In this document: in pieces, positions 27,140 to 44,897 of the stretch
Layout of the letters: every line of letters starts with the position of its first letter
Position numbering within the stretch: position 1 is the stretch's first letter
Assembly (NCBI RefSeq): GCF_015644665.1
Contig: NZ_JADOBQ010000001.1
Span: forward strand, 1 to 64,000
DNA length: 64,000 nucleotides
Origin: Roseobacter sp. MH60115
Lineage (GTDB): Bacteria; Pseudomonadota; Alphaproteobacteria; Rhodobacterales; Rhodobacteraceae
Direction of reading: 5' to 3'
Translations under genes and position numbers: made by a program
Notes under the pieces: model-generated
Database searches by the model: none
What the model was told of the DNA's origin: nothing
What the model saw: only the letters and a program-made list of their open reading frames with translations

Positions 27140-28185
27140 GTGTTGTCGAACTGGAGAACGTCTGGAAGGTTTTCGGATCCCGATCCGCGGAAGCCATGAA
27201 AGCCATCAAATCGGAAGGTCTGGGCAAGGCTGAGGTGCTGGAGCGGTTCGAGGCCGTGGTCGGGGTCAAAGACGCGTCCTTTTCGGTCGAGGAGGGGGAG
27301 ATTTTCTGCCTCATGGGTCTGTCGGGCTCCGGCAAATCGACCCTGGTGCGCCATATCAACCGCTTGATTGAACCCACCTCCGGCACGATCCGGATCATGG
27401 GCGAAGACATCGGTGCGATGAAGACGGAACAGCTGCGCGCGACGCGGGCAGACAAGATCGGCATGGTCTTTCAGAACATGGCCCTGCTGCCGCATCGTTC
27501 GGTGCGCGACAATATCGGATTTGCCTTGGAACTGCGCGGGATCGATGGATACACCCGCGCGCAGGCTGCTGATCGTGCGCTTGAGACGGTGTCGCTGCAT
27601 GGCTATGGCGACCGGCTGCCGTCGGAACTGTCGGGTGGTATGCAACAACGGGTGGGACTTGCGCGGGCCCTCGCGGCGGACCCCGAAATTCTGTTGATGG
27701 ATGAACCGTTTTCGGCGCTGGACCCGCTGATCCGGCGGAACCTGCAGGACGAATTCCTGGGGCTCAGCCAGAACCTCAAGAAAACCACCGTCTTCATCAC
27801 CCACGATCTGGATGAGGCCATCCGCATGGGCGACCGGATTGGCATCATGAAGGACGGAGAGATCGTACAAATCGGCACGGCGGAAGACATCGTGACAGCG
27901 CCCGCCGACGATTATGTCGCTGATTTCGTTGCGGGTATTTCGCGGCTCAAGCTGGTGTCGGCCTCCAAGATCATGCTGGACCCGGCGGAATTCACCGCCA
28001 CGCGTGGGCCGCTGGACGACAAGGGGGATCATCCGACCGCGCGGCCCGATGACGATCTGGACACGCTTGTCGGTCTCAGCACGGGCACCGACCTGCCGGT
28101 GCTGATCAAAGACGACGGTTCGGTGGTCGGGATCATCACCAAGGATACGCTGCTGCGTGGATTGCAAGGGGGGGCCGAGGCATGA
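27136..28185 (+). CDS. tmoV: TMAO ABC transporter, ATP-binding protein
   Basis: 349 residues, from a TTG start overlapping the tdm stop (TTGA, 27136-27139); the next ATG would delete the first strand. Walker A is GLSGSGKST, the signature is LSGGMQQRVG and Walker B is ILLMDEPFSALDP. It belongs to the proline/glycine-betaine (ProV) group, with a C-terminal extension of about 90 residues that includes one CBS-like segment (LPVLIKDDGSVVGIITKDTL). Such domains in OpuA sense ionic strength, but a single copy may not. The TmoV name rests on the neighbouring tdm. Confidence 0.82.
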   Translation: MSVVELENVWKVFGSRSAEAMKAIKSEGLGKAEVLERFEAVVGVKDASFSVEEGEIFCLMGLSGSGKSTLVRHINRLIEPTSGTIRIMGEDIGAMKTEQLRATRADKIGMVFQNMALLPHRSVRDNIGFALELRGIDGYTRAQAADRALETVSLHGYGDRLPSELSGGMQQRVGLARALAADPEILLMDEPFSALDPLIRRNLQDEFLGLSQNLKKTTVFITHDLDEAIRMGDRIGIMKDGEIVQIGTAEDIVTAPADDYVADFVAGISRLKLVSASKIMLDPAEFTATRGPLDDKGDHPTARPDDDLDTLVGLSTGTDLPVLIKDDGSVVGIITKDTLLRGLQGGAEA

Positions 28186-29990: not shown

Positions 29991-30028
29991 TCACCTCGCA
30001 ACCAAAATCAAAATGAAGGGAGACTACC

Positions 30029-30982
30029 ATGAAGGGATTGAAACACTCCGCCGCCGCATCAGCGCTTTTGCTGGCAGCGACAGGCGCGGGCGCGCAGGAG
30101 AAGATCACCTTTTCCGACCTCAGCTGGAACGGCGCGCAGGCCATCGGGCATGTGCTGGCGGCCATCGTCGAGCAGGAAATGGGCGGTGATGCGGAAATCG
30201 TATCGGGCATGAACCAGGCGGCCGTCATCATGGCGGGCATGGATAAGGGCGACGGATCTATCGATGTCTACACGGACATGTGGATGCCGAACCAGCAGGC
30301 GCTTTGGGACGAGTACATCGACGGCAACCAGACGGTGGCGACAAACAAGCCCTACAAGGGCACGTCCAACATCTACGTACCCAGCTACATGGCGGATAAG
30401 GTCAGTTCCATCGAGGACCTGAACAACCCCGAGATTGCAGCGATGTTTGATACCGACGGCAACGGCAAGGGTGAATACTGGGCCGGGGATGTGACATGGG
30501 CGTCGACCAAACGCTGGCAGATCAAGTTCAAATCCTACGGGCTGGACGGGCTGTGGGAGCCGAACATCGTCTCTGCCGACACGTTCAAGGCGGGTCTCGA
30601 AGCGGCCTATACCGCAGGCAAGCCACAGCTTTTCTACTACTGGACGCCTGAGGCGATCCACGTGAAATACGACCTGACCGCTCTGGAAGAGCCCGACCGC
30701 TTTGACGGCTGCGAAGTGGTCGATCTGGATGCCGAAGACTGGCTGGAAGTGTCCTATTTCGAATGCGTGATCGCGGCGAACGATATTTTTGTCGCCTATT
30801 CCAAGTCGCTGGAAGAGCGGAATCCACCGGTCGCCAAGATGCTGTCCAACGTGCAGTTCACCGGTGACGAGATCAACGGCTGGATCGTTGAAATGTTCGA
30901 AAACAAGCGCGATCCGCGTGAGGTGGCCGAAGACTGGATCGCCGACAACAAGGAAACGGTGACCGGCTGGATCAACGGCTGA
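30029..30982 (+). CDS. tmoX: TMAO-binding periplasmic protein
   Basis: 317 residues with a signal peptide (ending GAGAQE) and the OpuAC-type fold. Many tryptophans sit in likely ligand positions (DLSWNGAQAIG, YTDMWMPNQQALW, FYYWTPEAIH), fitting an aromatic cage for a quaternary or tertiary amine N-oxide head group. The published TmoX of Ruegeria pomeroyi likewise uses a tryptophan box. A good ribosome site (GAAGGGAG) lies ahead of the ATG. Glycine betaine or choline binding cannot be excluded from sequence alone. Confidence 0.8.
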   Translation: MKGLKHSAAASALLLAATGAGAQEKITFSDLSWNGAQAIGHVLAAIVEQEMGGDAEIVSGMNQAAVIMAGMDKGDGSIDVYTDMWMPNQQALWDEYIDGNQTVATNKPYKGTSNIYVPSYMADKVSSIEDLNNPEIAAMFDTDGNGKGEYWAGDVTWASTKRWQIKFKSYGLDGLWEPNIVSADTFKAGLEAAYTAGKPQLFYYWTPEAIHVKYDLTALEEPDRFDGCEVVDLDAEDWLEVSYFECVIAANDIFVAYSKSLEERNPPVAKMLSNVQFTGDEINGWIVEMFENKRDPREVAEDWIADNKETVTGWING

Positions 30983-31031: not shown

Positions 31032-31578
31032 ACATGCCTGCGCGCGTTTCTGAACCCGCGCCCACATGTTCAAAAGCAAAACCTATACCGACGGCTATCG
31101 GCGCTAGGCGAATTGTCGTGTCCCTGTTCTTTTGCAGGTCTGCCCGATGTGCGCCCTTTTGCGTAGACCTGTCCTTGCACAGCCGGTTCGTAGCAACCGT
31201 GTTGGTAACGAGTGAATTGGCCTGTCGGAGCACTCTGTTTTTGCCGCTCTGAGGTCAGTTTGAGTACAAGAAACAAGCGGCCCCGAAATCCGCGGGCAGA
31301 ACGATGGGCCGCATTTTCGACCGCCTTTGTGACATCCCCTCGAACAAGGCGGGGTACTCTATACCGGACCGGCTGTGCATCTTCTGCCCATTGAGTGCAC
31401 GAAACAGTGCCGGATTGCGCGCGCGCATGATCCGCCCGGCAACGCCCAGCCGTTCGGCAGGCTCCATTTCGCCGATCCTATACCAAAGGATAGGCGGCTA
31501 TACCGCTGCCATATCGCTTTTGGCTGCTAGTGGCGGTAGTCCGAGGACATCCCTTGCTGCTTTCACGGAGCCGACACC
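31032..31578. promoter_or_regulatory. 547-bp leader region upstream of the polysaccharide-locus sensor genes
   Basis: No supportable gene. The right half holds the first copy of a repeated inverted repeat (31477-31494). The octamer CTATACCG occurs three times on the plus strand (31083, 31359, 31498). The octamer also occurs in coding DNA elsewhere, so only the inverted repeat is treated as a site. Length and repeat content suggest a regulated promoter for the genes starting at 31579. Confidence 0.45.
31477..31494. promoter_or_regulatory. Inverted repeat, copy 1 of 3
   Basis: CCTATACCAAAGGATAGG: arms CCTAT and ATAGG, with the internal CC and GG also paired, around AAA. Its 16-bp core differs at one base from the copies at 34682 and 37920. 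It lies 85 bp ahead of the sulfite-oxidase-fold gene. Confidence 0.7.
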
Positions 31579-32088
31579 ATGTCCATCAAACCTACCCTTT
31601 GCGCCCTGTCACTCATTTTGGGTCTGACATCTGAAGGTCTGGCAGAACAGCTGCCCGTTCCGACTGGCGATGTGTTGTTGACCCTCTCCGGGGCACTGAC
31701 ACATGAAACGGCGGATGGGGTTGTCACGCTGGATCGGGCGTTGCTGGAAGTCATGGAGACGGTGGAATTCACCACCTCCACGATCTGGATGGAGGGGGAG
31801 GTCACCTTCACCGGTGTGCCGCTGCGTGACGTGCTGGACTATGCCGGCGCGCAGGGGCAGGAGATCAGTGCCGTGGCTCTGAACGACTACAAGATCGAGA
31901 TCCCGCTCAGCGAGATCGAGGAAGACACCCCAATCATCGCCTATCTGATGAACGGCGAGCCCATGTCGCGTCGTAACAAGGGGCCGCTCTGGATCGTCTA
32001 CAACTACGACAGCGATGCCAAGTATCGCAGCGAGGTGATCTATTCACGTTCTATTTGGCAACTCGACCGTATAGTCTCGAACAACTAG
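31579..32088 (+). CDS. Periplasmic sulfite-oxidase-fold protein lacking the molybdenum cysteine
   Basis: 169 residues with a signal peptide (ending EGLAEQ). The core resembles the molybdopterin-binding oxidoreductase fold of the YedY/SUOX family, shortened: GEVTFTGVPLRDVLDYAGAQ, then ALNDYKIEIPLSEIEE and KGPLWIVYNYDSD. Active members bind molybdenum through a cysteine; here the only cysteine is in the signal peptide, so it is probably not a redox enzyme. It is directly followed by a hybrid histidine kinase whose longest reading overlaps it. I infer that it is a periplasmic sensor subunit for that kinase. Confidence 0.75.
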   Translation: MSIKPTLCALSLILGLTSEGLAEQLPVPTGDVLLTLSGALTHETADGVVTLDRALLEVMETVEFTTSTIWMEGEVTFTGVPLRDVLDYAGAQGQEISAVALNDYKIEIPLSEIEEDTPIIAYLMNGEPMSRRNKGPLWIVYNYDSDAKYRSEVIYSRSIWQLDRIVSNN

Positions 32089-32114
32089 CGCGCGATGCTG
32101 GGCTCCTTATCGGG

Positions 32115-34697
32115 ATGGTACTGGAATTGTTCAGAAAGGACGCGATCTTGCGGCGCATCCTCCCGCTTGGGGTGATCCTCATCGGGATAGCACTTTTGGT
32201 CGGCCTGTTCCTGGCGATCACGCAGCGGATGAACACGCTGCGCGAGGCCCCCGGCGACAATCTGACCTGGACCCTGTCCCAGGTTGAGGTGGATGTGCTG
32301 CTGCTGACGGATGAGGCGCTGCTGGCGCAGCAGTCGGACCCGCCCGATCTCGCAACCCTGCGGCGACGGTTCGACAATGCCTATAGCCGCGCGGTCAATA
32401 TCCGCGAAAGCCGCGGCTTTGCGAAGATGCGCGCGGATGACACTTTTTCCGCACAGCTGGCCACGTTGCAGGCCTGCCTGGACAAGCTCGCGCTGCTGAT
32501 CGACCGCCCCGATGCGGAGCTGGGAAACAGTCTGCGAGAGGTCTGGCAGCTGTCGACCACGATCCGCGAGGACGCACATGACATCGCCTTGACCGGTATC
32601 GCGCTGCGCTCTGCGGCGTCCGATGCGGAACGGGCGGCGTTCAGTCGATTGCTGTTTGCCGCCGCCACGATCAGCATCGCGCTCATTCTCTTTCTGGGCT
32701 TCATGCTCTTTGTTTTGCTGCGCCAGTATCGCGTCCACCGCGAGATTTCAGAGGCCGCGGAGCGTGCGAATTCCCGGTTGAAGTCGAGTTTTGATGTGTC
32801 CCTGGATGCAATCATCGTGGCCGACGATCATGGGGTCATTCTGGACTACAGCGGCGCGGCGGAAACGGTGTTCGGCTTTGCGAAAGAGGAGGCGATTGGG
32901 TCCCAGATGGCTGATCTCATTGTGCCCCATCAGCACCGCGCGGCGCATCGGGCCGGGATGGACCGGTTCAACAAAACCGGAGAGGCGCGGCTGGTGGGGC
33001 AGGGCCGGATCGAGATCACGGCCTTGCGCAAATCGGGAGAGGAGTTCCCGGTGGAAATCTCCATCGGCATGGCCAAGGACCATCGCGGTACGATCTTCAT
33101 TTCCTACCTGAGAGACATCACCGAACGGCTGGCCGCCGAGGAAAACCTGAAACGTGCCCGGGACGAGGCCTTGCAGGCCGAACAGGCCAAATCCAATTTC
33201 CTCGCGGTGATGAGCCACGAGATGCGCACGCCGCTCAACGGTATATTCGGGACAATCGAGCTTTTGCAAAACACCAAGCTGGGCAAGACGCAGGCGGGCT
33301 ATCTCGGGATCGCCCGACACTCGGCAGATATCCTGCTCTACCATGTCAACAACGTGCTCGACGTGGCGCGCATGGACGTGGGCAAGCTGGAGCTGAGCGA
33401 GGACACTTTCGAGCTTCGGCAGTTCTTCAAGGACGTGGTGACCACGAATGAAACCACCGCCTATGCGCAAAGCAATACGCTCACGCTGGATTTGGCAGGC
33501 ATGTCACGCTGTCACGTGGTTGCTGATGAACAGCGGCTGCGCCAGATTGCCTTCAACCTGGTCAGCAACGCGCTCAAGTTCACGCACCACGGCAAGGTCA
33601 CCTTGAAGGCGCGGACGACACCGACGGATGATGGCCATCTGATGCTGGAATTCTCCGTCAAGGATACGGGCGTTGGCATTCCCCCGGAAGATCAGACGCG
33701 GGTCTTTGATCGCTTCTTCACGCAGGAAAAATCCTATGACCGGTTGGCCTCGGGTGCGGGTCTTGGGCTGACCATCTGCAAACAGCTTGTGGATATGATG
33801 CACGGGACGATCACCCTGAAAAGCAAGGTGGGCAAGGGCAGCACGTTCACCGTTTCGGTCCCTCTGCAGGTCGCCGAGGAGCGTGCCCCAGAGCCACATC
33901 AACCACCGACGATGCCGGATACGGAGATGTTGAAGGGGCAAGATATTCTGCTGGTCGAAGACAATGAGATCAACCGTCTGATCGTACGGCAAATGCTGAA
34001 GGCGCATGACGTGGAGGTCACCGAAGCCCATAACGGTCAGGAAGCGGTGGATCTGGCGCATCAGCGCCGGTTTGCCGCGATCCTGATGGATGTCAGCATG
34101 CCGGTGATGAATGGCCTCGACGCAACGGAGATTATCCGGGCGGCCGACACGCCCAATCGCGCGGTGCCCATCATCGGGTTGACCGCGCATGCGCTGGCCG
34201 ATGAACAGGCCAAATTCATCGCTGCCGGGATGGACATCTGCCTCAACAAGCCGGTGTCGCAGGCGGAACTGCTCGGCACGCTGGCCACTGCAATTGGTAC
34301 CGTGGATGTGATGGCACCGGAAAAAGCGAGGGTGCAGGTGGAGGATCTTGTGGCCTCTCACATTTTCGACGAGCTCAGAACAGTGTTCGCCAAGGAAAGG
34401 CTGCAGAGACTGGTGGCGGACTTCGAGGCGGAGATTGATGCCTTGTTGGCCGACGTGCCAACCCTTCTGGATGCGTCCGACCTGCCAACCCTGGCCGCAC
34501 GTACGCATAAATCAATTGGGTCTGCGGGCATGGTGGGTGTGGTCCCGTTCCAGCGGCGCTTGCGCAAGCTGGAACAGGCGGCCAAGGCTGGGAAGCCTGC
34601 AGCCTCGCACTCTGCGGCTACGGAGGCTGTCGATGCATGGCCAGAGACCCGCACAGCCCTGAGGGATGCGGCGACATCCCCCTATCCCAAAGGATAG
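32115..34697 (+). CDS. Hybrid sensor histidine kinase with PAS, receiver and Hpt domains
   Basis: 860 residues from the ATG at 32115; a TTG at 32055 (880 residues) would overlap the previous gene and is possible. Two membrane helices (about 14-37 and 178-206) bracket a periplasmic region of 140 residues. A PAS domain (about 222-340) follows, then HisKA with SHEMRTPLNG (His368), a HATPase (about 470-590, with FDRFFTQEKSYD), a receiver (ILMDVSMPVM, Asp659) and a C-terminal Hpt (THKSIGSAG, His798). This is a complete phosphorelay chain ending on Hpt, so a separate receiver is expected; the LuxR-type regulator at 42204-42851 is the candidate. The last 16 bases, including the stop, form the second copy of the inverted repeat. 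Confidence 0.88.
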   Translation: MVLELFRKDAILRRILPLGVILIGIALLVGLFLAITQRMNTLREAPGDNLTWTLSQVEVDVLLLTDEALLAQQSDPPDLATLRRRFDNAYSRAVNIRESRGFAKMRADDTFSAQLATLQACLDKLALLIDRPDAELGNSLREVWQLSTTIREDAHDIALTGIALRSAASDAERAAFSRLLFAAATISIALILFLGFMLFVLLRQYRVHREISEAAERANSRLKSSFDVSLDAIIVADDHGVILDYSGAAETVFGFAKEEAIGSQMADLIVPHQHRAAHRAGMDRFNKTGEARLVGQGRIEITALRKSGEEFPVEISIGMAKDHRGTIFISYLRDITERLAAEENLKRARDEALQAEQAKSNFLAVMSHEMRTPLNGIFGTIELLQNTKLGKTQAGYLGIARHSADILLYHVNNVLDVARMDVGKLELSEDTFELRQFFKDVVTTNETTAYAQSNTLTLDLAGMSRCHVVADEQRLRQIAFNLVSNALKFTHHGKVTLKARTTPTDDGHLMLEFSVKDTGVGIPPEDQTRVFDRFFTQEKSYDRLASGAGLGLTICKQLVDMMHGTITLKSKVGKGSTFTVSVPLQVAEERAPEPHQPPTMPDTEMLKGQDILLVEDNEINRLIVRQMLKAHDVEVTEAHNGQEAVDLAHQRRFAAILMDVSMPVMNGLDATEIIRAADTPNRAVPIIGLTAHALADEQAKFIAAGMDICLNKPVSQAELLGTLATAIGTVDVMAPEKARVQVEDLVASHIFDELRTVFAKERLQRLVADFEAEIDALLADVPTLLDASDLPTLAARTHKSIGSAGMVGVVPFQRRLRKLEQAAKAGKPAASHSAATEAVDAWPETRTALRDAATSPYPKG
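34682..34697. promoter_or_regulatory. Inverted repeat, copy 2 of 3
   Basis: CTATCCCAAAGGATAG, arms CTATCC and GGATAG around CAAA, identical to copy 3. It coincides with the last five codons and stop of the kinase gene and lies 116 bp before the Alg44-like gene. Confidence 0.7.
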
Positions 34698-34813
34698 CCC
34701 CCTTTAGACTTTTGCGCATGAGAGTGTTCCGCTGCGCCCCTCTGCGGCGCGTCTCCGCCTGATATACCGTCCGGAACGCCGCCGTATCGTCTGTACGCAG
34801 CCTGGAGCCCGCC

Positions 34814-36223
34814 ATGAACATTCGCCACGAATGTCCGATGTCAGATCTTTCGTTTTCGGTCACCGCACCGCTGCATTTGCACAAGGCAAATGGCTGCAAG
34901 GTGACTGCAAGCCGCTGGTCGCTGGCGGGGATATGGCTGGAGGTCGACGCGCCCGACATGGCCGGCGAAACGATGTTGTGCGTTCCTTTCCAAGGGGTTG
35001 AGGTCTCTTTCCCGGTTTCGCTGACGGCGACCGACACGCCGGGTCACTACCAGTTTGCAGAGCTTACCGTGCGGCAGCGAGAGACCCTTTCTACCTTCTA
35101 TCAGGGGGTGCTTTCGGGCCAGATGGTTTCTGCGGGAGAGATGATCACCAGTCTTGATACCCCGGTGGATCTGGTGCCGATGCACGAGACCGAAGCGGAG
35201 GAGGCCGCGGGTCGCGCAGCCGGGAAACCCCGGCTCCTCCGTATCATCTGGAACATGGCATTCTACACGGCAATGGCCGCTCTCTTGACGGTCTTTCTGG
35301 GCGGCCACATCTGGCAGCGCCTGTCCCGTATCGATCTGGAGCATGCGCGGTTTACGGCGCCAATCCTGGAGTATGTCGCACCGGGCGCGGGATATGTGAC
35401 GCGGCTGAACGTGGCGGTTGGTGACGATGTGGCCGCAGGTGACATTCTGGCCCGGATCGAGGACCCGGACCGGGAAAGCGATGTAGAGGATGTGCGGGCC
35501 GAAGTGCTGTTGGCGGAACGCCGCCTGAAAACCGCCGAAGACCGTCTGGCACGTCATCTGGCGCTGTACCAGACGCGCCGCGCCGCACTTTGGGCGGCGT
35601 TTTCCCAGGTGTGGGACCCGTGGCAGCGGAACGACCCGCGCGCGCTGGTTTACCCCCCTGTGGTTGAGACGGCATGGCGCGAATTATACGCATTTGACCG
35701 CGGTCGCGACACGGTTGCGGGGGGCTACTTTGACATGAAGGCCACGTTGGAGGCGGGTGTGGAGGAACGTGAGCTTGATCTGCGTCGCTGGAAGCGCGAG
35801 TTGCGGCACCGCAAGGCTGCTGCCGACAAGCTGCTGATCCGGGCACGCACCGCAGGTACCGTCTATGCTGTGCACGCCGAAAAAGGTGGCTATGTCGGGC
35901 GGAACACACCGGTTATCGACGTCGAAGACAAGAACCCGCGCCGCGCCGTTGCCTGGTTGGACGATGCCATGGCGACCCGCGTCCATGTCGGCATGGCGGC
36001 GCGGATCGCCTATGTCTACCGGGGTGAGGCCAGAGAGGTCACAGGCACCGTCACCGATGTGCAGGCCGGCACGAATATCGCGCAGCCCGACCGGTTTGGC
36101 ATGATCCTGACCATTCAGGCGGATGATGTCGGGGTCATGAACAGCCGCAAATGGTTCCGCCGCAATGCCCCGGCGCAGGTGTCGCTTGACCGTGTCTCCC
36201 CCCTTGTTTTTTGGAAGGGGTGA
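34814..36223 (+). CDS. Alg44-like membrane-fusion protein with degenerate PilZ domain
   Basis: 469 residues. About 10-110 resembles PilZ (KVTASRWSLAGIWLEVDAPD), a single membrane helix lies at about 148-170, and then an HlyD-type periplasmic part with two lipoyl-like halves (YVAPGAGYVTRLNVAVGDDV and RARTAGTVYAVHAEKGGYVG) flanks a helical hairpin. PilZ-membrane helix-HlyD is the layout of Alg44, the c-di-GMP-responsive partner of the alginate polymerase Alg8, and the next gene is Alg8-like. The c-di-GMP signature is damaged: there is no RxxxR and the Asp of DxSxxG is replaced (RWSLAG). So control by c-di-GMP is doubtful. Start chosen for GGAG seven bases upstream. Confidence 0.8.
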   Translation: MNIRHECPMSDLSFSVTAPLHLHKANGCKVTASRWSLAGIWLEVDAPDMAGETMLCVPFQGVEVSFPVSLTATDTPGHYQFAELTVRQRETLSTFYQGVLSGQMVSAGEMITSLDTPVDLVPMHETEAEEAAGRAAGKPRLLRIIWNMAFYTAMAALLTVFLGGHIWQRLSRIDLEHARFTAPILEYVAPGAGYVTRLNVAVGDDVAAGDILARIEDPDRESDVEDVRAEVLLAERRLKTAEDRLARHLALYQTRRAALWAAFSQVWDPWQRNDPRALVYPPVVETAWRELYAFDRGRDTVAGGYFDMKATLEAGVEERELDLRRWKRELRHRKAAADKLLIRARTAGTVYAVHAEKGGYVGRNTPVIDVEDKNPRRAVAWLDDAMATRVHVGMAARIAYVYRGEAREVTGTVTDVQAGTNIAQPDRFGMILTIQADDVGVMNSRKWFRRNAPAQVSLDRVSPLVFWKG

Positions 36224-36227
36224 GAGC

Positions 36228-37811
36228 ATGCAAGCGCCCGATACGGTCTATGCCTTTGAAAAGCACCTGGATGGCTGGTTGAAAAGGCTCTCCGGACCGG
36301 TGCCAAAAGGGTTTGCCAAATGGTCTCCGAGGCAGAGCGTTCAGTTCGCCCTTTTGCTTGGCCTGCTGAGCGCCGCGATGGTGTTCTGGCCAAACAACTT
36401 CTTTCATCCCGACCTTTTGCAGGTGACCTTTGTTCTGGGTGGCCTTGGCATCTGGCGCTTTGGCTGGTGGTTCACCCATGCGGTCCGCGCCGAGATTTTT
36501 GCACGGTTCAAATGGCCGGGCATGCGCCGTCGCGCGGATGCGGTTTGGCAATCGGGATGGCGCCCGCGGCGGTTGCATATCCAGATGACAACATTCTACG
36601 AAGAACCCGCCATCACGCGCCGCGTGATCGGCTCCATCCTTGGGCAAATCCGGCGAGAGGGCATCCCGACCACCCTGTGGATTGGCACCGGCGCTTCCTA
36701 TGATGAGCAGATCATCACGGAATTCGTGCGCACCCATGCCGCCGATCTGGATGCAGAACTGGTGTTCTTGCGGCAGAACCAGCCGGGCAAACGCATGGCC
36801 ATCGGTATGATCCTGCGGGCGATGAATCGTGCCGGTATTCGCCCGGATGATCTGGTTATCTTCATGGACGGGGACGCGGTCTATGGCACGGATGTGCTGG
36901 AAAAGACCTGCTCGATGTTTGGCGCAGACCCCGGCCTGCAGGCGCTGACCACCAATGAGGAGGTGCTGTGTTACGGGCCGGATTGGATTCAAAGCTGGTT
37001 GTCGATGCGGTTTGCGCAACGCCGGTTGGCCATGCAAAGCCATGCATTGTCCGACAAGGTGCTGACGTTGACTGGGCGGATGAGCGTCTTTCGTGCGTAT
37101 CACGTCACGGATGAGACATTCATCCGGACCATCGAAGCAGATCATCTTGATCACTGGCTGTGGGGGCGGTTCAGGTTTCTGTCCGGCGACGACAAGAGCA
37201 CCTGGTATCACCTGCTAACCAAACGCGCCAAGATGACCTATGTGCCCGATGCCTGCGTCTACACAATCGAACAGATCGAAGGATCGGGCACCGAGCGTAT
37301 GGTGCAGAATTTCCGCCGCTGGTCCGGCAACATGCTGCGCAACGGTACGCGCGCCATTGCATTGGGGCCGCGCGTGGTCAACCCGTTCATCTGGTGGTGC
37401 CTGGTCGACCAGCGGCTTGCCATGTGGACGATGCTGGTCAGCCCGACACTGGCGGTGCTGACGGTGTTCGTCGCACCGGCCTACCTGATGCATTGTCTGA
37501 TCTGGATCGTGCTCAGCCGGACAATCCTGTGCCTGTTCCTGTTCCGCTATGCGCGCAGCGCCGATATCAGCTGGCCCTTCATTCTCTACTTCAACCAGAT
37601 CATAAATGCGGGCGTAAAGGTCTATATGATCTTTCACCTCAGCAAACAGAAATGGTCGAACCGGGGCAATCAAACGGCGGGCAATGGCGGTACGTTGCGC
37701 GACAGGATGCAGAACGCAGTGGCCAAGTTCCAGCTGGTCACCACGGTCACGGCTTTCGTCACGGCGCTGGCGGTTTATGTGGGCGCGCTGGAGCTGCCTC
37801 CTCTCTTCTGA
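36228..37811 (+). CDS. Alg8-like processive glycosyltransferase (GT2)
   Basis: 527 residues, starting 4 bp after the previous stop (GAAGGGG upstream). Two N-terminal and about four C-terminal membrane helices enclose a GT-A domain: DGD at 214-216, the TTNE motif at 241-244, then RFAQRRLAMQ, LTGRMSVFRA, GDDKSTW (320-326) and FRRWSGNMLRNG. These match by memory the distinctive strings of Alg8, the mannuronan synthase of Pseudomonas (LTTNE, LTMTGRMSAFRA, TGDDKSSW), better than cellulose or hyaluronan synthases. It probably polymerises GDP-mannuronate made by the downstream dehydrogenase. Bacterial mixed-linkage glucan synthases are a more distant alternative. Confidence 0.82.
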   Translation: MQAPDTVYAFEKHLDGWLKRLSGPVPKGFAKWSPRQSVQFALLLGLLSAAMVFWPNNFFHPDLLQVTFVLGGLGIWRFGWWFTHAVRAEIFARFKWPGMRRRADAVWQSGWRPRRLHIQMTTFYEEPAITRRVIGSILGQIRREGIPTTLWIGTGASYDEQIITEFVRTHAADLDAELVFLRQNQPGKRMAIGMILRAMNRAGIRPDDLVIFMDGDAVYGTDVLEKTCSMFGADPGLQALTTNEEVLCYGPDWIQSWLSMRFAQRRLAMQSHALSDKVLTLTGRMSVFRAYHVTDETFIRTIEADHLDHWLWGRFRFLSGDDKSTWYHLLTKRAKMTYVPDACVYTIEQIEGSGTERMVQNFRRWSGNMLRNGTRAIALGPRVVNPFIWWCLVDQRLAMWTMLVSPTLAVLTVFVAPAYLMHCLIWIVLSRTILCLFLFRYARSADISWPFILYFNQIINAGVKVYMIFHLSKQKWSNRGNQTAGNGGTLRDRMQNAVAKFQLVTTVTAFVTALAVYVGALELPPLF

Positions 37812-37919
37812 GCCACCGTCATTTCTGTGCCTGACGTGGTCCCCAAACGCGGCACAGCCCGCGTCAGCCCAGGGTCATGCCCACGCTATTTGCTGCGATC
37901 TCCCATCCGGGCACGGGGC

Positions 37920-37935
37920 TATCCCAAAGGATAGC
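37920..37935. promoter_or_regulatory. Inverted repeat, copy 3 of 3
   Basis: CTATCCCAAAGGATAG, identical to the copy at 34682. It lies in the 222-bp gap before the AlgD-like gene, 98 bp ahead of its start. CTATACCGCTG follows at 37961, a string also found after copy 1. Confidence 0.75.
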
Positions 37936-38033
37936 GCCGCCATACAAAGTTTGGCGCACCTATACCGCTGTAGGAAAGATTGTTGTAAAACAGTTGGATA
38001 GAAGGATGTCAGTCACAAGTAAGGATTGGTATC

Positions 38034-39434
38034 ATGTTCGACATTCCCCTGAACTTCCCCCAGGAAACCCTGCAAGCGCCGCTGCGGCTGGTAGATGAGA
38101 AACCCAGCATCAGCGTTGTTGGCCTTGGCTATGTCGGGGCGGTGTCCACCGCTTGCCTGTCCAGCCTCGGACACCGCGTGGTGGGGGTCGATATCGACCC
38201 CGGCAAGGTGGCCTGCATCGCTGCTGGCCGGTCGCCGATCCATGAACAGGATCTGGAGCGGTTGTTGGGAGAAGGCGTGGAGGATGGTCTTGTCTCTGCC
38301 ACGGATGACCTGGAGCAGGCGGTTGTTGATACGGATGTCACATTTGTTTCTGTCGGCACCCCGACCGCCGCGGATGGCGGCTGTGACCACAGCTATATTG
38401 ATGCGGCGGCGCGGGCCATTGGCGCCGGGCTGAAACGCAAGCAAAGCTTCCACGTGGTGGTGATGCGGTGTTCGATCCCGCCGGGGGTGACCATGGGCTT
38501 CATGGCGCCGATCATCGAAGAGGTGTCCGGCCTGACGGCAGGGGAGGATTTCGGTGTCTGTTTCAACCCGGAATTCCTGCGCGAAGGTGTCGCGGTGGAG
38601 GATTTCTACGCGCCGCCCAAGACAGTGATCGGCGCCAATGACGCGCGCAGCGCCGCAGTTCTGTCCCGCATCTACGAGGCGGTGGACGAAAACCCGATTG
38701 TCACCACCGTCGAGACGGCGGAGATGGTGAAATACATCGACAATGTCTGGCACGCGACAAAGGTCTGTTTTGCCAATGAAGTGGGACGCCTGTGCAAGCC
38801 GCTGGGCGTTGACAGCCACGATGTCATGGATGTTTTCGTGCAGGACACAAAGCTGAACCTCTCTCCCTACTATCTCAAGCCGGGCTTCGCCTATGGGGGC
38901 TCCTGCCTGCCCAAGGAGGTGCGCGCGGTCGCGCATATTGCCGAGCAGCAAGGCGTTGATCTGCCGCTGATCCAGAGCCTCGGCGCCTCCAATGAGACAC
39001 ATATCGACGCAGCGCTTCAGATGGTGCGCGACACGGGTGCCAAAAGGGTCGGCGTTCTCGGGCTGGCGTTCAAACCCGGTACCGATGATCTGCGCGAAAG
39101 CCCCATTCTGGAGGTGATTGCCGCGCTGAACGCCGAAGGGGTCGAGGTGGTGATCCACGACCCGGCGATCACACCGGAAACCCCCCTTGCCGGTCAGCTT
39201 GCCTATGTGCGCCACGGCAGCCCCGGTCTGCAGGCGCTGGCCAAGGACCTGCCGGGTATGATGCGCGCCGATCTTGATGAGGTCACGGGCAGTGTCGAGG
39301 CAATGATCGTCACCCATGCCAACCCAACCTACCGCGCTGCGGTAGAGACTGCAGGCGACACGCCGGTCATTGATGTCGCCCGGATCGCGTCTGCGGCGCC
39401 GACAGCGGCAAACTATCAAGGGATCGGCTGGTAA
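38034..39434 (+). CDS. algD: GDP-mannose 6-dehydrogenase, AlgD-like
   Basis: 466 residues. The NAD-binding motif is VVGLGYVGAVS, the catalytic cysteine is Cys291 in GGSCLPK, and KPGTDDLRESP and a terminal GIGW end the protein. The strings NVWHATKVCFANEVG and KLNLSPYYLKPGFAYGGS resemble AlgD of Pseudomonas more closely than UDP-glucose dehydrogenases. It makes the nucleotide-uronate donor, GDP-mannuronate, by two NAD-dependent oxidations. A 24-residue N-terminal extension precedes the usual start. It has its own leader with the third inverted repeat, so it is probably a separate transcript co-regulated with the polymerase genes. Confidence 0.82.
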   Translation: MFDIPLNFPQETLQAPLRLVDEKPSISVVGLGYVGAVSTACLSSLGHRVVGVDIDPGKVACIAAGRSPIHEQDLERLLGEGVEDGLVSATDDLEQAVVDTDVTFVSVGTPTAADGGCDHSYIDAAARAIGAGLKRKQSFHVVVMRCSIPPGVTMGFMAPIIEEVSGLTAGEDFGVCFNPEFLREGVAVEDFYAPPKTVIGANDARSAAVLSRIYEAVDENPIVTTVETAEMVKYIDNVWHATKVCFANEVGRLCKPLGVDSHDVMDVFVQDTKLNLSPYYLKPGFAYGGSCLPKEVRAVAHIAEQQGVDLPLIQSLGASNETHIDAALQMVRDTGAKRVGVLGLAFKPGTDDLRESPILEVIAALNAEGVEVVIHDPAITPETPLAGQLAYVRHGSPGLQALAKDLPGMMRADLDEVTGSVEAMIVTHANPTYRAAVETAGDTPVIDVARIASAAPTAANYQGIGW

Positions 39435-39479
39435 CAGCCGCCCCGCATTTTGTGAACGTAACCAGTAAAGGAGGGACAA

Positions 39480-42185
39480 ATGTCCGTATCAGTTAATCAG
39501 AACCTTAGGATCGGGACACACTTGTCCGAAACACTTGAAGGCACCGCCGACGTGGATTTCGTTGTTGGGCTTTCCGGGGATGACATCATCCAGACCACGC
39601 AGGGGGACGACATCGTCTTTGGGGACTTCATCGAAACCAACATGCTTGAGGGCACGGACGGGGCCACCAGTTTTGCCCAATACGCCGATACCGGCGCCTG
39701 GGCCGTGTCCACCAGTGATAGTGGCCACACCAGCATGACGCAGGCGGTGGAAACCCGGGCAGGTGAGGTCTATGCGATCAGCTTCGATCTGGCGGCGAAC
39801 TATGGTGCGGGCTCTGTCAGCGGCGCTGTGGAAGTGTTGTGGAACGGGGCCGTCATTGACCAGTTCGATACCAACAGCGCCAGCTTTTCCGCCCATGACA
39901 TCACCTTCAAGGGGATTGATGGCGTCGGCGAGCTGACATTCCGATCCATCGACAGCACGCTTGATACCGGCCCGACCATCCACACGGATGCACCTGTCTT
40001 TTACTATGAAAAACAGATGGAGATCGGGGGCAAAGCCGTCGATGTCAAAGGCTTTGCCGAGGGGCAGGCGAGCATTTATCAGGTCATCAATGGCACGCTT
40101 CAGGTGTTTGATCCGCAGACCGGCAGCTACACGCTGGCTGGGCAAAAGGCGACGGTGACCGTCAACGCCATCGGCTTCAATGTTCAGGATGACATGATCT
40201 ATGGGCTTGCGGTGTCGAATGGCACGGACAGTCTGGGCAATGATGTTGCCAGTTCCGATCTGGTCATGCTGGACGCCTCGGGGGCAAGTTTCCGGATCGG
40301 CAGCACGCCCTATCGGTCATGGACCGGGGATTTCGATGCCGATGGCAATCTCTGGGCGTTCCAGTCCAGCATGGACCGGCTGACCATGATCGACGTGGAT
40401 AACGTCGGGGCCGATGGTCAGGTGGTCAGCAAGACCTTCCCCTTTCCAAAATCAATGATCCAGGATCAGCTCTGGGATGTGGCCTTTGATGCCGCCAGCG
40501 CATCTTTCTACGGTGTGACGCGACCCTCGTCCGAAGGCGCGCCCGCCAAGCTGTATCAGATCGACATTTCCACCGTTGCGGATGGCGGGGTGCCGATCAT
40601 CACGACCAGCGATATCACAGGGACGCTGATTGACGGCGTGTTGCAGGAAGGTGTCCCGCTGATGACCTTTGGCGCGGCCATTCATGATGCGGATGGCAAC
40701 CTCTACGTGGGCGGTAACGGGGGCGATCATGATATGAACGACGCCACCGCGACGGCGGGCGGTATCTACCGCGTGGTGCGTCAAGCAGACGGCAAAAGCG
40801 TTCAGCTGGAGTTGATGGCGGGCAGTCCGAAATCCTATTCCAATGACGGCACAGCCGATCCGCGCGCCATGAGTCCCTTTGCGGACGTGGATACATCCGC
40901 ATCGGTTCTGATCCGCGGGCTGAGCGTCGCGGCGACCACCGGCGGGGACACGACATATGACGATGTGATTGCCAATGGCGCTGGCGCGGACATCGCGGAT
41001 GGCGGGATCGGGGCGGACCTGATCGAAGGCCAGGGCGGCAACGACACGCTCACCGGCGGGCAGGGCGATGACCAGCTTTTTGGCGGCAATGCTACCCGGG
41101 TCGGGCCGCAAATGACCTATACCTACGATGATCTCGGCAACCGCTATGACGGCTATGGCAATCTGCTGCCCGAGGAGAACGATAGTCTCTTTGGTGGCGC
41201 CGGTTCGGATATGATCCACGGCGGGTCTGGCAATGACACGCTGGATGGGGGCGTCGACAACGATGACCTCAACGGCGGATCGGGGTTCGACTGGCTGCAG
41301 GGAGGCGATGGCGATGACCAACTTGCTGGCGGTGCTCAGAACGACGTTTTGCAAGGGGGTGCGGGCAATGACCAGTTGATCGGGGGTTCCGGCGCAGATG
41401 ATCTGCAGGGAGACGCCGGGGCGGATGTCCTGCGCGGTGGTGAAGGGGCCGACCGGATGGATGGCGGTTCCGGGGATGATCTGCTCAACGGCGGTGTCGG
41501 CGATGACAGTCTCGAAGGCGGGCAGGGCAATGACACGCTCGAAGGCAGCACCGGCGACGACATCCTGACCGACAGCCAGGGAGATAACGTCATGGACGGT
41601 GGCTCAGGCAACGACATGCTGACGGGGGGAACCGGTATCGACCTTCTCACCGGCGGTTCCGGCGATGACGTGTTGTCAGGCGCGGGGGCGCGGGATGTTC
41701 TGAAAGGCGGCACCGGCAACGACACGTTGAACGGGGGGGACGACAAGGACAAGCTCTATGGTGGGTCCGGCAATGACGTGATCAACGGCGGGTCTGGCAG
41801 CGACTACATCAATGCCTCGAAAGGGGATGACACCATTGACGCGGGGCAGGGACGGGACAAGATCCTGCTGGGTGCCGGGAATGATGTGGTGCTGGGCGGT
41901 GCCGATGCCGATTGGTTCGTTTTCAGAAGCGAGGATACGGACGGCGGCACAGATACGATCCTCGACTTCACCTGCGACGGTACTGAAAACGACCGGTTGG
42001 ATTTCCGGATGCTGGATCTGTTGACCTCGGACCAGACCAAATCGGACTGGATCGACCAGCACGTGGTGCAGAACGCTGATTTCAGCGTGACGATCGAATT
42101 GGCGAACCTGACGGTTGATTTGTGGGATCACAACGACCTGATGGAGATGTTCCTGGTTCAGGTCTGCGACAGCCTGGAACTCTGA
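39480..42185 (+). CDS. Secreted propeller/RTX protein of the polysaccharide locus
   Basis: 901 residues, with AAGGAGGG before the ATG. A short RTX-like start (LSGDDIIQTTQGDDIVFGDF) is followed by a beta-sandwich (about 55-165). A region with beta-propeller-like repeats (about 190-480; TVNAIGFNVQDDMIYGLAVS resembles DUF6923) comes next, and then many GGxGxDxLx nonapeptides (about 495-810). The C-terminal 90 residues look like a type I secretion tail. No epimerase or lyase motif is seen. Placed 45 bp after algD, it is probably a calcium-dependent exported protein that binds or organises the polymer. Alginate epimerases (AlgE type) also carry RTX modules, but their beta-helix catalytic motif is not visible here. 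Confidence 0.75.
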   Translation: MSVSVNQNLRIGTHLSETLEGTADVDFVVGLSGDDIIQTTQGDDIVFGDFIETNMLEGTDGATSFAQYADTGAWAVSTSDSGHTSMTQAVETRAGEVYAISFDLAANYGAGSVSGAVEVLWNGAVIDQFDTNSASFSAHDITFKGIDGVGELTFRSIDSTLDTGPTIHTDAPVFYYEKQMEIGGKAVDVKGFAEGQASIYQVINGTLQVFDPQTGSYTLAGQKATVTVNAIGFNVQDDMIYGLAVSNGTDSLGNDVASSDLVMLDASGASFRIGSTPYRSWTGDFDADGNLWAFQSSMDRLTMIDVDNVGADGQVVSKTFPFPKSMIQDQLWDVAFDAASASFYGVTRPSSEGAPAKLYQIDISTVADGGVPIITTSDITGTLIDGVLQEGVPLMTFGAAIHDADGNLYVGGNGGDHDMNDATATAGGIYRVVRQADGKSVQLELMAGSPKSYSNDGTADPRAMSPFADVDTSASVLIRGLSVAATTGGDTTYDDVIANGAGADIADGGIGADLIEGQGGNDTLTGGQGDDQLFGGNATRVGPQMTYTYDDLGNRYDGYGNLLPEENDSLFGGAGSDMIHGGSGNDTLDGGVDNDDLNGGSGFDWLQGGDGDDQLAGGAQNDVLQGGAGNDQLIGGSGADDLQGDAGADVLRGGEGADRMDGGSGDDLLNGGVGDDSLEGGQGNDTLEGSTGDDILTDSQGDNVMDGGSGNDMLTGGTGIDLLTGGSGDDVLSGAGARDVLKGGTGNDTLNGGDDKDKLYGGSGNDVINGGSGSDYINASKGDDTIDAGQGRDKILLGAGNDVVLGGADADWFVFRSEDTDGGTDTILDFTCDGTENDRLDFRMLDLLTSDQTKSDWIDQHVVQNADFSVTIELANLTVDLWDHNDLMEMFLVQVCDSLEL

Positions 42186-42193
42186 AACTCAAC

Positions 42194-42223
42194 AGGAGGC
42201 AGGTCAGAACAGGCCCGCCTCCT
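42194..42223. terminator. Hairpin between convergent genes
   Basis: AGGAGGC (42194-42200) pairs with GCCTCCT (42217-42223); the right arm lies within the end of the response-regulator gene. A short T stretch follows on the plus side. Possible terminator of the algD transcript. Confidence 0.4.
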
Positions 42224-42851
42224 TTGCGATCATTGCCGCATGCGTGCGGTTTTTTGCATCCAACTTACGGCACAGCGTTTTCACATGCAGTTTGATCGTG
42301 ACTTCCTGCAGGTCGATTTCCCGCGCGATTTCCTTGTTGGCCAACCCGCGGGTCAGACAGGACAGAACTTGTAGTTCGCGCGGTGTCAGCAATTCCTTGA
42401 GCGGGTGTTCTACCTCTTCCTCTTCCTGGGTCATGAAATCGATGGGCGCGTATTTCTCGCCCATCGCCATGAAGCGGATGGCGTTCACCAGTGATTTGGC
42501 CGCGACCGTTTTCGGCAGAAATCCGGCGGCCCCCATTTCCAGCGCCTCTTCGGCCACGGCCTTGCTTGCAGAGCCCGAGATCAGCGCCACAGGGCGCGGG
42601 CGCACGGCATCCATGATCTTTTGCAAGCCGCTGAGACCGTTCATGCCGGGCATCTCATAGTCCAGCAGGACCAGATCAAACGGATCATGCGCCATCAGTG
42701 CCTTTTCGACCTCCGGCAGATCGTTTGACTGCACAACGACAAACCCGTCCTCCTTTTCCAGAAAGGCGGCAATCGTTTCGCGGACAAGTTCGTGATCGTC
42801 TGCCAGAAGTATTCGCACTGGGGCCTCGCGCCGATTATTTGCACCCTGCAT
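42204..42851 (-). CDS. LuxR/NarL-family response regulator
   Basis: 215 residues. The receiver domain has the acidic pair (LLADDHELV), phospho-acceptor Asp64 (LLDYEMPGMNG) and Lys in FLPKT. A LuxR-type helix-turn-helix follows (LTPRELQVLSCLTRGLANKE then HVKTLCRKL). An internal GTG at the twelfth codon is an alternative start. NarL-type regulators bind short inverted repeats as dimers, and three near-identical repeats lie in the adjoining polysaccharide locus, which also contains the Hpt-bearing kinase. I infer that this is its output regulator. It is convergent with the RTX gene and transcribed toward it. Confidence 0.88.
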   Translation of the reverse strand: MQGANNRREAPVRILLADDHELVRETIAAFLEKEDGFVVVQSNDLPEVEKALMAHDPFDLVLLDYEMPGMNGLSGLQKIMDAVRPRPVALISGSASKAVAEEALEMGAAGFLPKTVAAKSLVNAIRFMAMGEKYAPIDFMTQEEEEVEHPLKELLTPRELQVLSCLTRGLANKEIAREIDLQEVTIKLHVKTLCRKLDAKNRTHAAMIAKEAGLF

Positions 42852-42946: not shown

Positions 42947-43666
42947 TCAAACAGATTCTGATGCCAGCGTTAACTCTTTGTATCCGTCGCGGCCTTTCTC
43001 ATGCTGTGCAAACGTTTCGCGACAGGGCAAGACGTTCGGCAGACGCAGGCAAAGATACTGTGCGTAGGTGCCATAGAGGTCTTCGTGCTGCACGCTACAT
43101 CCTGACAGCTGCGCGGTGAAGTGGCGCAGCGCATCGCGGGGTTTGACGTGGAATTTCGCCAACCACTGGCGCAGGGCCCGATCAAACCAGTTGGGCAGGT
43201 CGCTCTGGTCGCCGAAATCGACGATGTGCAGCCGCCCACCCGGTGCGAGGTGACGTAGACTTTCGTCAATGGCGGCCCGCCAGTCAGGGATCATCGACAG
43301 GCTATAGGACATGACGATGTGGTCGAACTGCCGCGCGCCAAACATCTGCTGCGGGTCGTAGTCGCAGGCGTCGCCGGGCGCGAGCGTCGCACGGTGTCCC
43401 AGTTTGGCCCGTGCCGAGATCAACATCTGTTGTGAGATATCGAACCCGTAAAGCTGCCGCCCGGGATAGCGTTTGTCGATCCGGTCCAGATTGCGGCCTG
43501 TGCCGCAGGCGACCTCCAGAATACGGGCGTCGGCGGTGGGTTCGATCTGCTCCACAAGATGATCCCGGCCCAGCAGATAATACTTGCGCGTCGCGTCGTA
43601 AAAGAGCCGTTGACGGCGATAGACATTGTCCATCAGCGCCGCATGACTTGACCGGGCATCCGTCAT
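42947..43666 (-). CDS. btaB: Betaine-lipid N-methyltransferase
   Basis: 239 residues, SAM-dependent methyltransferase fold: motif I ILEVACGTGRNLD, then GFDISQQML and LRHLAPGGRLHIVDFGD. BtaB methylates diacylglyceryl-homoserine three times to give DGTS. The ATG at 43666 is 4 bp after the btaA stop and has GGGGG upstream; earlier in-frame starts lie inside btaA. The pairing with BtaA makes the assignment firm. Confidence 0.9.
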   Translation of the reverse strand: MTDARSSHAALMDNVYRRQRLFYDATRKYYLLGRDHLVEQIEPTADARILEVACGTGRNLDRIDKRYPGRQLYGFDISQQMLISARAKLGHRATLAPGDACDYDPQQMFGARQFDHIVMSYSLSMIPDWRAAIDESLRHLAPGGRLHIVDFGDQSDLPNWFDRALRQWLAKFHVKPRDALRHFTAQLSGCSVQHEDLYGTYAQYLCLRLPNVLPCRETFAQHEKGRDGYKELTLASESV

Positions 43667-43670
43667 CGTC

Positions 43671-44897
43671 TCACCCCCGCAGTTTATAGACATGGAACCC
43701 GCCGTAGATCGCCGAACGGTCGTTTTCAAAGCCGATGCGCGACGCGTCCGTTTGGTATTCCCACATGCTCAGCAGGCTGTCCGCCACACGCCCTGGCAGG
43801 ATGTTGTCTGCGCCACCCGTGCGGAAAATCACGCGCGCGCCCGGGGCCGCTGTGCGGGTGATCTGGTCCCACAGGGTGTTTAGCTGGGTGTCCGTCATCC
43901 AATCCTGGGCGTCGAGCAGAACATAGGCATCTTTCGACGCTGTCGGCTGGTTGGCCAGAACGTCGGTCAGTGATTTATTCAACACCTGAACGCGGGCGGC
44001 ATTGTCCCTGACAATGTCAAAGTTCTCCGGTTGCAGATAGGGTGGCACGGGGCCAGTGCCCGAAGGATCGTAGCCACGATGCGCAGCCTGCCAGGCAAAG
44101 TAGTTCCGTGAAATCGGGAAGTCGCAAAAGAGCTTGCGCGTGCGGTCGAGCAGGACCGGGATCACGTCGCCCCCTGCATCAGAGGCCAGTTTGTCATATT
44201 GCGCGGGCGGTATGCCCAGTCCAAAGAGCGATGCGCGACGGCGGGCGAGAAACCGAACGAAACCGGAGGCGTAGAGCGGCGCGATCTTTTCGTCGAAGAA
44301 CCGGCGTTGTTCGTCCAGAGTCGTCGCGGCGAGCAGAGGTCGAAAATCCACACCAGCGACGCGCGCCACCAGATGAACCGCACCCAGAAAACGGCCGAGC
44401 AGCCCAAAGCGGTAGAGCCCCTTCGCCAACATCCGTTTTCGCGGGCCGCGCAGCGTCCAGCCGTTCCAGTAGGCGCGGGTCTCTGCGTCCAGCGCCGGTG
44501 CCACATAGGTGTCAAAGAGCTTGATGTTGTGGGCGCGATCCGCGTGGCCGAACATGTCATAGAAGGCCGCGTGATCCGGCAACTGCCGGGCTGCAGTGAG
44601 TTTGACCTTGTTGAGCATGACATGCGCAGGCGAAAGATCGACCGCCGTAATCGACGCCGGTTGAGCCGTCAGATAGGACATCACGTTGCAGCCACCTGAG
44701 GCGATGCAGATCACGTTGTCCTCCGGTGTCAGGTGCAGCGCCTGCATGTCGACGACGGGGTCTTCCCATATCTGGGCATAGACCAAGCCGTGAAAGAGAC
44801 GCGAAAACAGCCGCTCCAGCAGGCCGTCGCGCGACAGGCGCGCATTCTGGTGGACGGCGGCGCCAAGCTGGTCCGTCACGGTTTGCGTTACAGTCAT
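43671..44897 (-). CDS. btaA: S-adenosylmethionine:diacylglycerol 3-amino-3-carboxypropyltransferase
   Basis: 408 residues, DUF3419 family. Characteristic strings are LFHGLVYAQIWEDPVVDMQA, CIASGGCNVMSYLT (the SAM-binding loop) and AVDLSPAHVMLNKVKLTA. BtaA transfers the aminocarboxypropyl group of SAM to diacylglycerol, the first step of betaine lipid synthesis. It follows plcP by 13 bp, and plcP would supply the diacylglycerol. Phosphorus-free betaine lipids replace phospholipids when phosphate is scarce. Confidence 0.93.
   Translation of the reverse strand: MTVTQTVTDQLGAAVHQNARLSRDGLLERLFSRLFHGLVYAQIWEDPVVDMQALHLTPEDNVICIASGGCNVMSYLTAQPASITAVDLSPAHVMLNKVKLTAARQLPDHAAFYDMFGHADRAHNIKLFDTYVAPALDAETRAYWNGWTLRGPRKRMLAKGLYRFGLLGRFLGAVHLVARVAGVDFRPLLAATTLDEQRRFFDEKIAPLYASGFVRFLARRRASLFGLGIPPAQYDKLASDAGGDVIPVLLDRTRKLFCDFPISRNYFAWQAAHRGYDPSGTGPVPPYLQPENFDIVRDNAARVQVLNKSLTDVLANQPTASKDAYVLLDAQDWMTDTQLNTLWDQITRTAAPGARVIFRTGGADNILPGRVADSLLSMWEYQTDASRIGFENDRSAIYGGFHVYKLRG

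Follow-up and report, generated by a model that had tools for sequence, protein, structure and literature searches.

In Pseudomonas and Azotobacter, the alginate system is encoded by algD-8-44-K-E-G-X-L-I-J-F-A and is under AlgU/MucA control. Binding of cyclic dimeric guanosine monophosphate (c-di-GMP) by the PilZ domain of Alg44 requires R21, and its dimeric form requires R17; Alg44 mutations that block binding stop alginate production, and how the c-di-GMP gate on Alg8-Alg44 works was called not known in the same report of 2021 (PMC8461298). PruR proteins have a tryptophan in the position of the molybdenum-ligand cysteine of enzymes, and pruR is often followed by a gene for a kinase whose periplasmic domain is of the DcpA type and which bears a WX7E motif, an arrangement termed PruR-DTB; the accessible part of the publication describes these kinases as widespread, without a named output (PMC13259868). 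Here we analyze a locus with alginate-type polymerization genes and a PruR-type sensor at positions 31032-42851 of the window, by which we mean nucleotides 1-64,000 of contig NZ_JADOBQ010000001.1 (C1) of Roseobacter sp. MH60115 (GCF_015644665.1; genome 4.76 Mb). We consider it probable that the locus belongs to a split alginate regulon for an acetylated poly-mannuronate, which is switched transcriptionally by a PruR-kinase-LuxR relay and is not gated by c-di-GMP.

The first-pass annotation of this DNA had described Alg44-, Alg8- and AlgD-type genes flanked by a putative periplasmic sensor protein, a hybrid kinase ending in Hpt and a LuxR-type regulator, and it is confirmed by gene calling and domain scanning (Table 1). 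The single repeated operator that it had recognized throughout the locus was also recovered: CTATMCCAAAGGATAG, which has the inverted-repeat form CTATMC-N4-GGATAG, occurs there three times without a mismatch. With up to three mismatches allowed, the window still contains three matches; 100 shuffles, by comparison, averaged 0.14 and always stayed below three. Scanning the whole genome at two or fewer mismatches returned five places: the three exact copies, all in the locus, one copy with one mismatch on contig C15, and one with two mismatches on C12. The reversed control pattern returned one place. All four copies with at most one mismatch (4/4) are located at PruR or alg genes.

The operator copy on C15 lies 73 bp before a run of five genes that share one strand, predicted to encode AlgF (PF11182, 33.8 bits, just below the cut-off of 34.4), AlgI (MBOAT, PF03062), AlgJ and AlgX (both PF16822), and AlgE (PF13372, 57 bits); none of the five proteins passed the NCBIfam alginate models. 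These are five of the eight genes that had been named absent (E, F, I, J and X). The earlier statement that AlgK, E, G, X, L, I, J and F are lacking is correct for the 12-kb locus and incorrect for the genome, where E, X, J, I and F stand on C15 behind the operator. The description of the polymer as minimal cannot be kept, as these five genes are present in this genome and occur in cis in near relatives. The first-pass reading of a truly minimal polymer locus, working without other alg genes, was dropped once the C15 run was found. Some members may manage without these genes: at E ≤1e-20, Alg8 is matched in 41 of the 295 genomes in our family set (individual genomes and loci are given as G and L numbers), and among the 20 of these with at least 64% identity, the window included, 7 have no AlgJ relative at 1e-15 and 3 have AlgE (PF13372). 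The presence in MH60115 of an E-X-J-I-F run behind the same operator makes a minimal locus extremely improbable.

The remaining alginate genes were sought in the MH60115 genome by profile and by query. A PF05426 search for AlgL gave no match, and neither did the AlgG of the Pseudomonas-type operon L220 (NF038177); in G478, the control genome of Pseudomonas type, this query reached 6e-207. The L220 AlgK, assigned by NCBIfam to NF038194 at 451 bits (below the cut-off of 700), also gave no match in this genome; it recovered the control G478 at 9e-101 and is an insensitive query, since a Sel1/TPR protein next to AlgF in G193 escaped it. When a similar protein from L041, also of the Sel1/TPR kind, was used as an alternative guide to AlgK, MH60115 gave only 8e-4, which is not a convincing match. 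A single ManC is encoded in the genome, outside the window on contig C2 (TIGR01479, 572 bits). About 1 kb from the C15 operator is a gene for an extracytoplasmic function (ECF) sigma factor (L006:13192-13728, + strand), which as an AlgU candidate was looked at by family scans only, and beyond it is a gene for an RTX protein (L006:16003-17676, - strand).

Gene surroundings were mapped for the Alg8 matches of the family set and for named matches, the best 80 of 569. Loci of Ruegeria, Shimia and Thalassovita are among the latter; in Ruegeria and Shimia strains the genes from the kinase to Alg44 stand together in cis, and Thalassovita mediterranea has F-I-J-X in cis too. In a quick tree of 49 Alg8 rows, 18 rows of the clade containing the window join at a support of 93, or 99 when two Mameliella rows are included, with L057 as the nearest row; the outgroup is not coherent and there are two long branches, so that the deeper joins are unsure. 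One relative, L038, carries in a single stretch E-F-I-J-X, an operator, PruR, kinase, Alg44, Alg8, ManC, an operator, AlgD, RTX and LuxR, with an additional operator before AlgE. L057 and L082 resemble it in layout, and L037 has the order operator-E-F-I-J-X-operator-Alg44-Alg8. As these four loci hold E-F-I-J-X in cis, the window is most simply read as the split form of a larger locus. Separation is also seen elsewhere: judged by contig positions, F-I-J-X lies hundreds of kb from Alg8 in G270, G210 and G230, and G264 and G180 have it on other contigs than Alg8, the linkage there being undecided owing to short contigs or contig ends.

Neighborhoods were compared in 36 of 43 de-duplicated clade loci, those in which Alg8 is flanked on each side by 7.5 kb or more; the 7 shorter loci were left out, and a gene lying beyond the fetched stretch was scored as absent. 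AlgD was found in 33/36, LuxR in 28/36, RTX (>1000 bits) in 26/36, PruR and the DTB-type kinase each in 20/36, ManC in 19/36, AlgI in 9/36 and AlgE in 3/36. PruR and the kinase occur as a pair in 20 of the 36 loci, and all 20 also contain LuxR. Seven loci (L039, L042, L045, L046, L061, L062 and L064) have the LuxR-type regulator beside a different hybrid kinase, with PruR absent from the fetched stretch. The sensor seems to be exchangeable in these seven, with the regulator and alginate genes retained.

The window Alg44 has the PilZ and membrane-fusion domain layout and keeps the PilZ fold, but lacks both the RxxxR motif and the acidic residue of DxSxxG. RxxxR was found in none of the 44 scorable clade rows (39 distinct, window included), compared with 42/42 rows outside the clade. 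One further clade row, L040, could not be scored for the motif, and by eye it is missing from two Mameliella rows. From this count 12 of 99 loci were dropped because their best Alg44 open reading frame reached ≤250 bits; five of them belong to the clade or its sister (L054, L081, L083, L086 and L087), and of these five, L086 and L087 alone were inspected by eye. From these sequences we infer that clade Alg44 has lost c-di-GMP binding. With the fold kept but the c-di-GMP motif lost, the usual post-translational gate would be gone, leaving transcription as the main switch. If alginate were instead gated by c-di-GMP in the ordinary way, the degenerate PilZ domain would have to bind it otherwise or another receptor would have to act as the gate, and the phosphorelay would be an extra layer of transcriptional control. 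Given the absence of an in-register RxxxR from all 44 scorable rows and, by eye, from both Mameliella rows, and the requirement for R21 and for binding in alginate production (PMC8461298), we regard such gating as unlikely.

Two further comparisons were made. A PDB search with the L115 Alg44, which has an intact motif, returned no PilZ entry, while a Pseudomonas-type Alg44 did find one. The Alg8 residues H323, T457 and E460 were considered as a mark of c-di-GMP independence and rejected, since rows with an intact PilZ motif also differ from the Pseudomonas-type rows at these sites; the numbering did not fit L223.

The PruR-type protein of the window matches PDB entries for pterin-binding proteins, 7rkb at 1.5e-32 and 7kos at 1.9e-32, the latter being Agrobacterium PruR according to the part of PMC13259868 that is accessible. 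Trp70 and an LNDY stretch aligned with 7kos, and Trp70 was equated with the tryptophan of the reviewed PruR proteins by alignment position. The gene lies directly upstream of the kinase gene, and the DcpA-type periplasmic domain of the kinase was judged by motif and place only. In the window the kinase has W-X7-D in register with W-X7-E; PruR-linked rows carry W-X7-E in 21/26 and W-X7-D in 5/26 cases, window included, or 18/23 and 5/23 once repeats are removed. The secreted protein is predicted to be a PruR-type pterin binder and the kinase its DTB partner. A pterin would be the ligand of the window PruR, and phosphate would pass from the Hpt domain to the regulator.

Within the clade, the operator (≤2 mismatches) lies at PruR in 17/20 cases (L043, at an edge, left out; L070 included), LuxR in 13/28, Alg44 in 15/42, AlgD in 6/36, ManC in 4/29 and AlgE in 1/1. 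With this threshold it was not found at the Alg8, RTX, AlgF, AlgI, AlgJ or AlgX genes of the clade, and the reversed control pattern did not occur at any scored clade gene. Where PruR and LuxR diverge from a shared intergenic stretch, their sites may be one and the same. Across the 295 family genomes at ≤1 mismatch, the operator occurs at 90 places in 64 genomes, compared with 18 places for the reversed control, and 12 of the 20 close-Alg8 genomes have a site. Of 31 operator loci checked, seven show it in the stretch from which LuxR and the PruR-kinase genes diverge; six of these seven loci come from genomes that lack an Alg8 match. G142 has one more operator so placed. In G185 and G004 a one-mismatch operator lies ~130-145 bp before a gene for a WecG and sugar-transferase fusion. 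For many of the sites in other genomes, no target gene is apparent. Near operator copies at L184 and L181 (genomes G004 and G139) there are globin-like proteins, recognized by eye, and large hybrid kinases. On the basis of this co-occurrence, the regulator of the locus is the putative binder of the repeated operator.

The first-pass annotation had also proposed a dedicated sensor chain. This agrees with the operator copies of MH60115 but not with the wider family, where the PruR-kinase-LuxR module and the operator occur in genomes without an Alg8 match; the kinase and regulator have partners elsewhere, a finding that it had named as counting against its proposal. As it is found without Alg8, the module is portable, and it stands near exopolysaccharide genes more than once, not near alginate genes only. 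These modules, and the clade loci in which LuxR is accompanied by a different, non-PruR kinase (7/36), are also what would be expected if the operator belongs to the LuxR-type regulator while PruR-DTB feeds another regulator and is merely a neighbor. The presence of LuxR in 20/20 PruR-bearing clade loci and of the operator in the divergent LuxR/PruR intergenic region in 7/31 operator loci, six of them lacking an Alg8 match, argue otherwise, and a chance neighborhood seems to us quite unlikely.

In the mechanism that we propose, the locus would be the regulatory and polymerizing half of a split alginate regulon. Periplasmic PruR would load a reduced pterin, or a relative of one, and alter the periplasmic domain of the kinase, and phosphate would run along HisKA-REC-Hpt to the LuxR-type regulator. 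The regulator would then bind CTATMC-N4-GGATAG at sites ~70-140 bp before each of four units: pruR-kinase, alg44-alg8, algD-rtx and, at a distance, the run that starts with algF. AlgD would make GDP-mannuronate from the GDP-mannose supplied by ManC elsewhere in the genome, Alg8-Alg44 would polymerize it, and the products of the C15 run would export the chain (AlgE) and O-acetylate it (AlgX/J/I/F). Gene content, the operator, the second run behind it, conservation and motif loss are direct observations on the sequences, and a locus acting like a pterin-sensing switch and an alginate factory has good sequence support. We also put forward, more tentatively and at somewhat less than even confidence, a wider scenario for the family: in one Rhodobacteraceae clade an alginate polymerase was freed from c-di-GMP, with the motif lost, most simply once in a common ancestor, and the fold kept, and was handed to a portable pterin-sensing PruR-DTB-LuxR phosphorelay, whose operator marks alginate genes in the locus and on another contig of MH60115 and other exopolysaccharide genes, such as those for WecG-type initiation enzymes, elsewhere in the family. 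The locus would offer a concrete regulator, operator and target set for PruR-DTB kinases, and a natural Alg8-Alg44 polymerase without the c-di-GMP motif, which bears on how the c-di-GMP gate works. It also illustrates how genes that seem "missing" from a pathway may form a run elsewhere, preceded by the same operator.

A number of observations weigh against these proposals. A single event on the tree, and not 44, is the simplest account of the loss of RxxxR. All scorable PruR-less clade loci also lack the motif, and L101 and L105, outside the clade, carry PruR together with an intact RxxxR; motif loss and the PruR system are therefore not strictly coupled. The fetched stretches lack LuxR in 8/36 clade loci and PruR in 16/36, and 7 of the 16 PruR-less loci carry another kinase. 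The PruR genes of L041, L057 and L065 (3/20 scored) have no operator at ≤2 mismatches in the scored stretch, and of the 12 close-Alg8 genomes that contain the operator, four (G193, G072, G270 and G210) have it only far from Alg8. Its occurrence in 64/295 family genomes means that the operator is not confined to alginate genes. Among five further genomes in which F-I-J-X stands apart from Alg8, G230 alone has a two-mismatch site before algF, and no operator was found before the distant F-I-J-X of L187, L188, L190 and L191. The operator tie between distant runs is clear in the MH60115 genome and is not general. In that genome ~31 kb separate the locus from the start of C1, and ~11 kb separate the run from that of C15. 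Even if those contig ends met, the two would be at least ~42 kb apart; they are not neighbors, and the assembly does not imply different replicons. Lastly, as no AlgG, AlgL or AlgK match was found in the genome, export would have to proceed without the canonical scaffold.

The mannuronan-type chemistry suggested by the first-pass annotation was borne out by the nearest structural and profile matches. AlgD matches GDP-mannose 6-dehydrogenase (1mfz, 5.1e-111) ahead of UDP-glucose dehydrogenase (3vtf, 7.8e-89), and ManC is encoded in more than half of the clade stretches. A profile built on the Alg8 proteins of seven Pseudomonas-type operons gives the window Alg8 299.6 bits, E. coli PgaC 1.9 and a middle piece of BcsA 1.6. 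A grouping of Alg8 with glucan or hyaluronan synthases, named earlier as a possible objection, thus finds no favor as far as PgaC and the BcsA piece are concerned, which were compared by profile, outside the tree; hyaluronan synthases were not scored. Mannuronate is the likely polymer unit as judged from these sequences, and since no AlgG was found, no guluronate is expected and the product would be an acetylated poly-mannuronate. The clade Alg8 does sit on a long branch, with 35-38% identity to the Alg8s of Pseudomonas-type operons, and the genome yielded neither AlgG nor AlgL, as might be anticipated if a divergent Alg8 made some other uronate. We judge this very doubtful in view of an AlgD that favors the GDP-mannose enzyme, of ManC in 19/36 stretches, and of the AlgE/F/I/J/X homologs.

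The RTX protein had been taken to stand in place of the missing alg genes. It is also present where those genes are, in L038, L057 and L082, and this idea was abandoned; in the clade it usually follows AlgD. Its predicted model has a predicted local distance difference test (pLDDT) score of 79, with the propeller part at low confidence. Roles as an epimerase, a lyase or an export part were considered and not adopted, given this low confidence and a Foldseek search whose top matches were RTX domains and weak propellers. At ~21400 (+ strand) the window has one more reading frame of RTX type, which scores 214 bits with the RTX profile.

Table 1. Genes and operator copies of the MH60115 locus, in window coordinates
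Feature	Position	Strand	Description
pruR-type gene	31579..32088	+	169-aa secreted protein, SUOX/Oxidored_molyb fold (PF00174, 2e-10); signal peptide by eye
DTB-type hybrid kinase	32115..34697	+	Periplasmic domain, PAS-HisKA-HATPase-REC-Hpt
Alg44-type co-polymerase	34838..36223	+	PilZ fold, then transmembrane helix and HlyD-type membrane-fusion part; alternative start 34814
Alg8-type GT2 polymerase	36228..37811	+	Assigned by domain scan, profile and tree
AlgD-type GDP-mannose 6-dehydrogenase	38034..39434	+	PDB 1mfz, 5.1e-111
RTX protein	39480..42185	+	PF00353, 15 stretches; N-terminal mixed-beta/propeller-like part
LuxR/NarL-type response regulator	42204..42851	-	REC and GerE domains
Operator copy 1, CTATACCAAAGGATAG	31478..31493	+	Ends 85 bp before PruR start
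Operator copy 2, CTATCCCAAAGGATAG	34682..34697	+	Overlaps kinase stop codon; ~116-140 bp before Alg44 start
Operator copy 3, CTATCCCAAAGGATAG	37919..37934	+	Ends 99 bp before AlgD start

The first part of the locus, 31032-31578, is the intergenic region upstream of the first gene. The open frame of the kinase extends from a TTG at 32055, and its start codon may be this one or that at 32115. Just 5' of the locus, 24815-30982 (+ strand) encodes a GCV_T/DUF1989 protein and an ABC transporter set, with a glycine-betaine-type binding protein last. On its other side, 42947-44897 (- strand) encodes a methyltransferase and then a DUF3419 protein, a pair that we take to resemble BtaB/BtaA of betaine-lipid synthesis. 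Further on, 46951-52236 (+ strand) encodes a protein of 1761 residues whose C-terminal domain is a 5-nucleotidase one; a weak match to endonuclease/phosphatase falls just short of its cut-off.

Surveying the open literature on alphaproteobacterial Alg8/Alg44, PruR, DcpA-TorS-BaeS and roseobacter alginate, we did not find this arrangement described among the matches listed. Homologs of algA and algC have been tied to biofilm or motility in Phaeobacter, in the accessible parts of PMC6224355 and PMC12363192. Within the family, the second alginate-type loci L231-L234 (Alg8 identity 37-38%) share the adjoining AlgD-Alg8 genes, with ManC near in 4/4 and AlgI called in 3/4. Their Alg8 forms a separate clade from that of the window, and by eye the Alg44-like proteins of L232-L234 also lack RxxxR.

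The PruR-DTB systems, of which the accessible part of PMC13259868 gives Ruegeria pomeroyi DSS-3 as an example, have the same order of pruR followed by a DcpA-type kinase with PAS-HisKA-HATPase-REC. Compared with what is set out there, the window adds the Hpt end, a linked LuxR regulator, the operator, and alginate genes as the target; the words "alginate" and "response regulator" do not occur in the main text of that paper. The Agrobacterium PruA-PruR-DcpA system, as presented in the same part of PMC13259868, likewise uses a periplasmic pterin-binding protein to control exopolysaccharide and attachment. Its output is c-di-GMP turnover, whereas that of the window would be a phosphorelay to DNA, with an Alg44 lacking the c-di-GMP motif.

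Pseudomonas-type operons, L220 and those like it, were recognized by gene order, and L220 also by NCBIfam models for AlgK, AlgG and alginate lyase. MH60115 shares with the Pseudomonas/Azotobacter system AlgD, Alg8, the Alg44 layout, AlgE/X/J/I/F and ManC/AlgA homologs. It differs in having these in two runs on separate contigs, in lacking a detectable AlgG, AlgK or AlgL, and in the lost PilZ motif, so that it is not a strict member of the Pseudomonas-type system as regards RxxxR, AlgG and AlgL. To the shared genes it adds its own operator, the PruR-DTB-LuxR set and the RTX partner.

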